The notes beneath the pieces are model-generated. The model was not told the origin of the DNA and did no database searches. It saw nothing but the letters and a program-made list of their open reading frames with translations. Source: Porticoccaceae bacterium (lineage in GTDB: Bacteria; Pseudomonadota; Gammaproteobacteria; Pseudomonadales; Porticoccaceae). Taken from it: DNA of 64,000 nucleotides. A program made the position numbers and the translations under genes. Below, piece after piece: positions 14,102-17,849 of this stretch. Position 1 is the stretch's first letter. Each line of letters starts with the position of its first letter. The DNA is taken from NCBI GenBank assembly GCA_029254005.1, contig JAQWYJ010000066.1:1-64000 (forward strand), given 5' to 3'.

Positions 14102-15112
14102 TTACGCCAACGCTTCTTTCGTCGTTTTAATAATTGCTGCTGCAACCTTGTAGGGATCTGCGTTAGACGCAGTTCTGCGATCCTCTAGACGACCTTTCCA
14201 ACCGTCTTCAACGGTACCGATGGGGATACGAATTGAAGACCCTCGATCAGATACACCAAAGCTAAACTCGTCAATTGACTGAGTCTCATGCAATCCTGTC
14301 AAACGTTGATTGTTGTCAGCGCCGTATACACTGATGTGACGTTCAATATTTTTACCAAACTCTTCACAAATTTTGGTGAAAATTGACTCATCACCTAAAT
14401 CACGCATTGGCCCATTAGAGAAATTGGCGTGCATGCCCGATCCATTCCAGTCCGTGTTACCAAGTGGTTTGGGGTGATAATTAATGGAAAAACCATATTT
14501 TTCACCCGTACGCTCAAGCAGGTATCTAGCAACCCAAATCTCGTCTCCCGCTTCTTTTGCACCTTTGGCAAAGCACTGAAATTCCCACTGACCCGCTGCA
14601 ACTTCAGCATTAATGCCTTCAACATTAATACCCGCCTCTAAACAGATATCTAAATGCTCTTCAACACACGCTCTGCCGTAGGCATTAGCTGCACCAACAG
14701 AACAATAATAAGGGCCCTGTGGACGAGGGAAACCACCGTGGGGGAAACCAGGAGGTAATTGAGTGTCCTCATCCCACAAGAAGTACTCTTGCTCAAATCC
14801 GAACCAAAAGTCATTGTCATCGTCATCAATAGTTGCCCGGCCATTTGAGACGTGAGGAGTACCGTCAGCATTGAGTACTTCAGTCATTACCAAAAATGCG
14901 TTGCTCCTATCTGGATCTGGATAGATAGCGACAGGTCTGAGCAAGCAATCGCTCGCGTTTCCCTCAGCTTGCTCAGTAGAACTACCGTCGAAAGACCACA
15001 TTGGGCACTCTTCAAGGGTTCCGCCGAAATTGTTGCGAACTTGGGTTTTGCTACGCAAGCTTTGCGTTGGCGCATAACCGTCCAGCCAAATATATTCTAA
15101 CTTTGCTTTCAT
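14102..15112 (-). CDS. Glutamine synthetase, type II (eukaryotic-like GSII)
   Basis: 336 aa with YIWLDGY, WSFDGSSTEQAEG, PQGPYYCSVGAANAYGR, GINAEVAAGQWEFQ, WNGSGMHANFS, QRLTGLHET, SIRIPIG..EDRRTASNADPY: GSII signatures, not GSI. Confidence 0.93.
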   Translation of the reverse strand: MKAKLEYIWLDGYAPTQSLRSKTQVRNNFGGTLEECPMWSFDGSSTEQAEGNASDCLLRPVAIYPDPDRSNAFLVMTEVLNADGTPHVSNGRATIDDDDNDFWFGFEQEYFLWDEDTQLPPGFPHGGFPRPQGPYYCSVGAANAYGRACVEEHLDICLEAGINVEGINAEVAAGQWEFQCFAKGAKEAGDEIWVARYLLERTGEKYGFSINYHPKPLGNTDWNGSGMHANFSNGPMRDLGDESIFTKICEEFGKNIERHISVYGADNNQRLTGLHETQSIDEFSFGVSDRGSSIRIPIGTVEDGWKGRLEDRRTASNADPYKVAAAIIKTTKEALA

Positions 15113-15337: not shown

Positions 15338-15440
15338 ATGAAATTGATAACTAAGAAATCAAACCAAGCCGCATAGAATGGGGCTTTTGAGCATCCAGAT
15401 ACTTTATCTTTTATCGAGCACATCATCAAATCCTTCTTAT

Positions 15441-15457
15441 TGCTCTTTTTTGGTGCA
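15441..15457. promoter_or_regulatory. NtrC-binding enhancer-like site 1
   Basis: TGCTCTTTTTTGGTGCA versus TGCACYNNNNTGGTGCA; one strong half-site. Confidence 0.65.
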
Positions 15458-15471
15458 AAATTTCTACTTTA

Positions 15472-15488
15472 CGCACTTTTTTGGTGCG
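15472..15488. promoter_or_regulatory. NtrC-binding enhancer-like site 2
   Basis: CGCACTTTTTTGGTGCG; 31 bp from site 1 (about three helical turns). Confidence 0.72.
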
Positions 15489-15631
15489 ATAAGGCGTTTC
15501 CCGCCAACGCTTCTATTTATTATGTCTCATTTGTACTACGCATCATCCAAAGAGCAGAAAATCAACTTACATATAAACACTAACCCCTGTGTCAACAACA
15601 GAGGTACACTCTTGTTGGCCAATACTAAGGA

Positions 15632-15916
15632 ATTAAGACCATCATCAACACAGTATATAATCCAGACACTGGCGATATAATCATTGATATCAGACATCCT
15701 AGTGAAGCCAACGATAGGCCGTTCAAATGGACCGAAAATGAAGTACTGCGCATTCCATTTTTCAATTTAGCATCACAAATTCCAACCCTCGACACCAGTA
15801 AAAAGTATCTGATTTATTGTGAAAAAGGCATCATGAGTAAAATGCAGGCAATTACCATGAAAGATCATGGATTTTTTCATGTCAGTGTTTTAAAGCATAC
15901 TTCTGTGAATAAATAG
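15632..15916 (+). pseudogene. ThiI C-terminal rhodanese domain remnant (no canonical start codon; open through the TAG at 15914)
   Basis: Frame after the TAA at 15626 reads IKTIINTVYNPDTGDIIIDIRHPSEANDRPFKWTENEVLRIPFFNLASQIPTLDTSKKYLIYCEKGIMSKMQAITMKDHGFFHVSVLKHTSVNK*, matching the ThiI C-terminal rhodanese domain including YCEKGIMSKMQA. Confidence 0.82.
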
Positions 15917-16037: not shown

Positions 16038-17849
16038 ATGTCAATCTCTAACTTGCGTAATATCGCAATCATCGCTCACGTCGACCATGGTAAAACGACC
16101 CTTGTAGACAAACTGCTTAGCCAGTCGGGTACGCTAGATAGAAAAGATATTGGCTCTGAACGCCTGATGGATTCAAACGACCAAGAAAAAGAACGTGGCA
16201 TTACTATTCTAGCGAAAAACACTGCCATTAATTGGCAAGACTACCGCATTAATATCGTAGATACACCCGGACACGCCGACTTTGGAGGTGAAGTAGAGCG
16301 GGTTTTATCTATGGTAGATTCGGTCCTACTGCTGGTCGACGCAGTAGACGGCCCAATGCCGCAAACACGATTTGTTACTTCTAAAGCGTTTGAACAAGGA
16401 CTACGACCAATTGTAGTAATTAATAAGGTTGATCGTCCTGGTGCGCGACCTGACTGGGTGATGGATCAGGTATTTGATCTCTTTGATAACCTAGGCGCTA
16501 CCGATGAACAACTAGACTTTCCGGTAATCTATACCTCGGCCATTAATGGAATTGCCGGTAGCGATCATGAAAATATGGCAGAAGATATGACGCCACTATA
16601 TAAAATGATTGTCTCTGAAGTTCCAGTCCCTCAGGTTGATGCAGATGGGCCCTTTCAAATGCAGGTATCCGCGCTGGCCTATGATAGTTATGTTGGTGTT
16701 ATTGGGGTTGGCCGAATCACCAGAGGTGAACTAAAACCAGGACAGCAGGTTATTGTCAAAAGTGCTAATGGTGACCAACGAAAAGGAAAGATCCTCAACG
16801 TCAAAGGCTATTTAGGCCTTGAGCAAATCGAAACCCAACTGGCTGGTGCAGGCGATATCGTTTGTATAAATGGCATCGATGGTTTGGCTATCTCAGATAC
16901 ACTTTGTGATCCAGAGCATATAGAGGCATTGCCAGCACTGAGTGTAGATGAACCTACCGTAAGCATGACGTTTATCGTCAATGACTCACCTTTCGCAGGT
17001 CTTGAAGGAAAATACGTTACCACACGTAATATCAAAGACCGCTTAGCTCAGGAATTGATTCACAATGTTGCTCTACGGGTAACTCCTGGTGACACACCTG
17101 ATAAATTCATCGTGTCTGGGCGGGGTGAATTGCATCTTTCGGTGTTAATCGAAACAATGCGTCGCGAAGGATTTGAAATGGGTGTATCGCGTCCTGAAGT
17201 TGTGCAAAAAATAGTTGATGGCGCCGTTCATGAGCCCTTTGAGCACGTTGTAATAGATGTCGAAGAGCAACACCAAGGATCAGTCATGGAAGAACTTGGT
17301 ATGCGAAAAGCTGAGTTGACTAATATGGAACCAGATGGAAAAGGTAGAGTCCGCCTCGAATTTTCTATGCCCTCAAGAGGTCTTATCGGCTTTCGTGGAG
17401 CCTTTCTTACACTTACCTCTGGGTCAGGTATTATGACTAGTATTTTTGATCGCTATGCGCCAGCCAAAGAAGGAGAGAAGTTTACTCGTAAAAATGGTGC
17501 ACTGGTTAGCATGGTTAAGGGCAAGACTGCAGCATTTGCGCTGTTTAATATTCAAGCGCGGGGTAGATTATTCTTAGGTCATGCGGTCGATGTCTACGAG
17601 GGACAAATTGTTGGTATTCATTCACGTGCCAACGACCTGGTGGTTAACCCTATCAAAGGCAAACAACTTACTAATGTTCGAGCCTCGGGCACTGATGAAG
17701 CTTTAACGTTGGTACCGCCGATTAAGCACACACTTGAGCAAGCACTCGAGTTTATTGAAGATGACGAGTTAGTCGAAGTAACTCCCTCAAGCATTCGAAT
17801 TCGCAAAAAGCTACTTACTGAAATTCTTCGCAAAAGAAGCTCTCGGTAA
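16038..17849 (+). CDS. typA: Ribosome-associated GTPase TypA/BipA
   Basis: [45 protein letters not shown], full-length 603 aa. Confidence 0.97.

Follow-up and report, generated by a model that had tools for sequence, protein, structure and literature searches.

The interval between glnA and typA in a Porticoccaceae genome (GCA_029254005.1) contains an open reading frame for a rhodanese domain that has no ordinary start codon, and this raises the question whether the frame is what remains of a decaying thiI or a gene that is still translated. The window analysed, i.e. the whole stretch of DNA, comprises 64,000 nt (contig JAQWYJ010000066.1, positions 1 to 64,000, forward strand). Its genome (G000) belongs to the SAR92 clade, is 94% complete and was compared within a genus set of 50 genomes (G000-G049). 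The frame consists of 95 codons (15629-15913) between a TAA (15626-15628) and a TAG (15914-15916). As the earlier note had stated, the window has no in-frame ATG, GTG or TTG from the stop at 15626 up to the core of the domain; the first in-frame ATG falls within the active-site loop. The divergent upstream neighbour is glnA, an ORF for a glutamine synthetase of 336 aa (14102-15112, minus strand), and the downstream neighbour is typA (603 aa, 16038-17849, plus strand); the synteny of both was examined in relatives, for glnA by tblastn.

A profile search bore out the identification of the frame as the C-terminal rhodanese domain of ThiI. It matched TIGR04271 (ThiI_C_thiazole) with 98.1 bits (E 2.4e-28), against a curated cut-off of 70 bits, and Pfam Rhodanese with 24.1 bits. 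A stop-to-stop run of 95 codons has a probability of about 0.002 at the base composition of the window; judged by the profile comparison, the TIGR04271 score alone excludes a chance origin. The translation contains the ThiI-type loop CEKGIMSK, of which the Cys (C60, codon TGT at 15818-15820, plus strand) is invariant in alignments A1 and A2. It is the putative catalytic residue, equivalent by motif to Cys456 of E. coli ThiI. The AlphaFold2 model, with 43 homologues in the input, is compact, confident and rhodanese-like (pLDDT 90, pTM 0.82). Its fold matches in the PDB are rhodaneses, including persulfide reductase and dioxygenase rhodanese domains, and the solved structures closest to it in sequence are likewise rhodanese domains. 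Counted from the start codon proposed below, the stand-alone domain runs from 15641 to 15916 on the plus strand (91 codons plus the TAG).

The stand-alone domain was found in 44 of the 50 SAR92-clade genomes, in frames of about 95-160 aa. It is intact in 41 of these; one copy (G017) has a one-base frameshift inside the domain and two (G049 and G033) are truncated at contig ends. Five genomes of 1.2-1.4 Mb (G005, G008, G010, G014 and G035) lack the domain on contigs that span typA into glnA. The remaining genome, G048 (74% complete), has no typA and was left out of the judgement of presence or absence. None of the 50 genomes contained the THUMP/PP-loop part of ThiI (TIGR00342) over the cut-off, and six sister genera encode full-length ThiI in frames of 495-575 aa. 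A full-length thiI elsewhere, which the earlier note had named as the sign of an inert remnant, was not found in G000, where the best genome match is MnmA; a weak ThiI match on contig C79 was rejected, being MnmA at a contig end. Of the best 80 GTDB hits, 27 showed a short upstream frame, and all 27 belong to the SAR92 clade. No relatives of the locus were found among viral contigs.

In the sister genera thiI adjoins typA, and the location in the glnA-typA interval has been retained in part of the genus, with a glnA type that varies by clade. The short 336-aa type is present in clades A and B, and a different glnA type is found there in the other clades and the sister genera; the glnA beside the rhodanese gene in clades A and B looks like an in-place replacement. 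A TATAATGC-type -10 element lies 33-50 nt 5' of full-length thiI in most related genera examined, and in clades C, D and E an element of the same type is found ahead of the stand-alone gene. Based on this synteny, the clade distribution and the shared -10 element, we infer an N-terminal deletion in the ancestor followed by vertical inheritance, which agrees with the suggestion that the N-terminal part had been lost from an ancestral glnA-thiI-typA locus. The deletion in the SAR92 ancestor would have removed the THUMP and PP-loop part and spared the thiI promoter region together with the rhodanese domain at the C-terminus.

The frame could be open by inheritance only, as the remainder of a decaying thiI that lost its N-terminal part. 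The missing canonical start in G000, the frameshift in G017 and the clean absence from five small genomes fit this explanation. However, 44 of the 50 genomes retain the domain in spite of the diversity of the clade, the catalytic loop is conserved and Shine-Dalgarno sites are retained at the starts. In addition, dN/dS (Nei-Gojobori, domain core, close pairs) was 0.05-0.14 in most pairs, and species that have no canonical start were no exception (G009/G030, 0.08; G012/G041, 0.11). Higher values were obtained for G011/G022 (0.23), G006/G020 (0.20) and G021/G041 (0.29, on almost no changes). The stand-alone domain is under purifying selection across the SAR92 clade. For G000 against the others dS is near saturation, the nearest copies being about 50% identical over the locus. 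Its substitutions affect 1 of the 19 strongly conserved columns and 36 of the 59 other columns, similar to its relatives. Since dN/dS is low in the relatives and the conserved columns are kept in G000, decay of the window domain appears unlikely, and the remnant explanation as a whole is very improbable. The earlier note would have taken frameshifts and stops in close relatives, with dN/dS near 1, as the mark of a pseudogene; the relatives show neither frameshifts in general nor a neutral dN/dS. The window domain is best explained as a gene still in function rather than as a leftover of thiI.

It is likely (probability roughly 0.7) that this functional gene uses a near-cognate start codon, putatively the AUC encoded at 15641-15643 (plus strand), directly followed by a second ATC at 15644. 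A Shine-Dalgarno sequence, TAAGGA (15626-15631, plus strand), overlaps the in-frame stop TAA and lies 9 nt before the ATC, with a predicted anti-Shine-Dalgarno duplex of -5.3 kcal/mol. The AAGGA at 15627-15631 to which the earlier note had drawn attention is correct and forms part of this fuller site. An 8-bp inverted repeat (ACCCCTGTGTCAACAACAGAGGT) is present just 5' of it, at 15583-15605. No Rfam RNA (TPP riboswitch or other) was detected 5' of the frame, and the best match in a search for sigma-70-like promoters (15633-15661) lies inside the frame and is at chance level.

Clade C, among others, has an ATG 6-9 nt 3' of the Shine-Dalgarno sequence. Fourteen species have no credible canonical start (G000, G004, G009, G011, G012, G021, G022, G026, G027, G029, G030, G038, G041 and G047), and most of them have AUC, AUU or AUA 6-9 nt past the best Shine-Dalgarno sequence. 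The homologous start column of clade E contains ATG (G013, G019), ATC (G029, G011, G022), ATA (G004) and ATT (G038). That of clade D contains ATC (G009, G012, G021, G030, G041) and ATT (G026, G047), with GAGGA-type sites 5' of it. G011 and G022 also contain a GTG two bases past AGGG. The start was also predicted blindly, as the in-frame codon for which pairing with the anti-Shine-Dalgarno sequence, at a distance of 5-8 nt, was best. AT[TCA] was the best-paired codon in 11 of the 14 species versus 2.2 expected (0 of 20,000 permutations), the 14 having been assigned after sequence inspection and the relatives not being independent. When the species were collapsed to seven lineages, AT[TCA] was obtained in six (P 0.0002). 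The blind test recovers ATG in only 14 of the 27 species that have one. With AT[C/T/A] recurring in the corresponding position of relatives, initiation at a near-cognate codon that follows a Shine-Dalgarno sequence, one of the two options in the earlier note, seems the best reading. For G000 itself, whose nearest copies are distant, the start codon is a prediction from these patterns in relatives.

The gene for initiation factor IF3, infC, was used as a control. In E. coli, infC starts with ATT behind GGAG. The infC genes of G000 (L212, G000:C116:3026-3532) and six relatives (together L208-L214) likewise have an ATT start with GGAG 5' of it at a spacing of about 8 nt; G000 therefore very probably uses AUU initiation. 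Non-canonical starts known from the literature are ATT/ATC in infC and GTC in sigR (PMC5472188).

Alternatively, the gene may be functional and have an ordinary start that escaped detection, either an ATG, GTG or TTG further upstream or frameshifting from an overlapping frame. An out-of-frame ORF of 100 aa (15378-15680) overlaps the proposed start, and some relatives have an ATG or GTG far upstream. However, an in-frame stop precedes the proposed start by only 4 codons in G000 and 5 codons in G029, with no canonical codon in between. Moreover, the upstream ATG of G026 (clade D) falls within a TATAATG box, and inspection revealed no conserved overlapping frame supplying a start in the relatives. 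This makes an ordinary start unlikely. Under the preferred reading, the near-cognate start, the rhodanese domain would be translated from the AUC at 15641, positioned by the UAAGGA at 15626. Because this layout matches that of infC (AUU), expression of the domain is expected to be low and IF3-sensitive.

Two jobs of ThiI are known, the formation of s4U in tRNA and the supply of sulfur for thiazole. No thiG or thiC was found in G000, and in all 48 of the 50 genus genomes have neither gene (ThiG-like TIM-barrel matches of 18-28 bits were not counted as thiG). Only in G001 (G001:C232) and G037 (G037:C59) were thiC and thiG present, together on a single contig that also has, close to the thi genes, a frame of the ThiF-rhodanese type; thiamin synthesis was probably regained in these two. 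By gene content, neither known job of ThiI is left in the 48 genomes without thiG and thiC. Where both the thiazole genes and the s4U synthetase domains have been lost, neither ThiS/ThiG nor tRNA U8 can be the client of the free domain. The earlier note had implied a role in thiazole synthesis. This finds a precedent in Salmonella, where the rhodanese domain of ThiI alone suffices (PMC5372745), and the presence of thiC and thiG in G001 and G037 would suit it. However, the lack of thiG and thiC in G000 and 47 other genomes contradicts it for G000, barring an unknown thiazole route, and the thi contig of G001 and G037 has its own ThiF-rhodanese fusion. A thiazole role is thus extremely improbable. 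A search of the literature on SAR92 thiamin auxotrophy and stand-alone ThiI rhodaneses yielded nothing describing the present gene.

Synthesis of s2U34 in tRNA by MnmA is another process to which the domain might supply sulfur, and MnmA-like PP-loop genes are indeed present in nearly all genomes. However, MnmA-like frames also occur in G005, G008, G014 and G035, which lack the domain. TusE was detected in 22 of the 23 genomes tested, irrespective of the presence of the domain, and s2U34 is therefore an improbable client.

G000 encodes moaC, moaD, moaE and moeB of the molybdenum cofactor pathway, which is present in most of the genus. There, MoeB is about 250 aa long and has no rhodanese. In G005, one of the genomes from which the free domain is missing, the gene next to moaE encodes a MoeB-type protein of 346 aa whose C-terminal part matches rhodanese weakly. 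The order of the genes is identical in G010, where the MoeB-type copy is cut by the contig end. MoaE and MoeB were not detected in G008, G014 and G035, all without the free domain, and in two genomes of other genera (G052 and G054) no ThiI, MoaE or MoeB was found. Among genus genomes at least 90% complete, 26 had both the domain and a rhodanese-less MoeB, one had the domain only, none had MoeB only and three had neither (Fisher P 0.001, with kinship ignored and few independent events). The domain-only genome, G036, has a divergent domain, and MoaE and MoeB were not detected in it.

G033 had been considered as a counterexample, with a rhodanese-less MoeB and no domain, and was rejected as such. 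Its typA contig ends within the last 20 residues of the domain and derives from a different SAR92 lineage than its moeB contig, so that G033 is probably a mixed bin from which the domain is not absent. In G033 (L199, G033:C95) the rhodanese gene is separated from typA by a GGDEF-EAL gene of about 790 aa.

Sulfur donors of MoaD include rhodaneses (PMC3227635), and in E. coli IscS is the primary sulfur donor (PMC8300815). MoaD is the likeliest candidate client of the free domain, at somewhat less than even odds; the co-occurrence, on few independent losses, is suggestive only. Against MoaD speak G036, with its divergent domain, and a second single-domain rhodanese in G000. The free domain is a putative persulfide carrier of about 90 aa: the Cys encoded at 15818 would take sulfur from a cysteine desulfurase and hand it on, most likely to MoaD activated by the rhodanese-less MoeB. 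The complete scheme is more tentative and on balance doubtful: a clade-wide orphan ThiI rhodanese as dedicated persulfide donor of MoaD, kept at a low dose by a non-AUG start (AUC, AUU or AUA) and IF3 discrimination, the start drifting among AUN codons.

A free rhodanese could also serve general persulfide, thiosulfate or cyanide detoxification. The single-domain rhodaneses GlpE and PspE are described as passing sulfur to thiophilic acceptors (PMC2593051). The persulfide reductase and dioxygenase domains among the fold matches point the same way. However, the loop CxKGIMSR is of the ThiI type, and its strong conservation hints at a specific partner, which makes detoxification rather unlikely.

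To our knowledge, very few bacterial genes with AUU, AUC or AUA starts have been documented. Such starts are invisible to standard gene callers. An orthologous start that alternates between AUG and other AUN codons across many species offers a natural series for asking why near-cognate starts persist. Likewise, a bifunctional enzyme of which a single domain has been kept, although neither known function remains, suggests that the ThiI rhodanese has a client not yet recognised. The gene is testable, since cultured SAR92 strains such as H231, H921 (G026, with a predicted ATT start) and MOLA455 have orthologues.

Compared with known systems, the window gene shares with ThiI of E. coli and Salmonella the TIGR04271 family, the catalytic Cys loop and the ancestral place beside typA. 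In contrast to these, it is separate, lacks the NFLD, THUMP and PP-loop parts, and resides in a genome without thiG, thiC and the s4U synthetase. Like infC (IF3; AUU/AUC) and Streptomyces sigR (GUC), it has no canonical start and a putative non-AUG codon behind a good Shine-Dalgarno sequence, and infC of G000 has the same layout. Unlike them, it encodes a small putative sulfur carrier, its homologous start appears to alternate between AUG, AUC, AUU and AUA among species, and control by IF3 is only putative. YnjE, MoeB-R/MoeZ-R and MOCS3, rhodanese partners of MoaD/MoeB, may be functional equivalents, the MoeB here being without rhodanese; however, the window gene belongs to a different rhodanese subfamily at a separate locus. 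GlpE and PspE resemble the window domain in size and fold, whereas its sequence and active-site loop are of the ThiI type. To judge from these comparisons, the window gene is a ThiI rhodanese that has become independent and whose start codon drifts and is, it seems, often not AUG.
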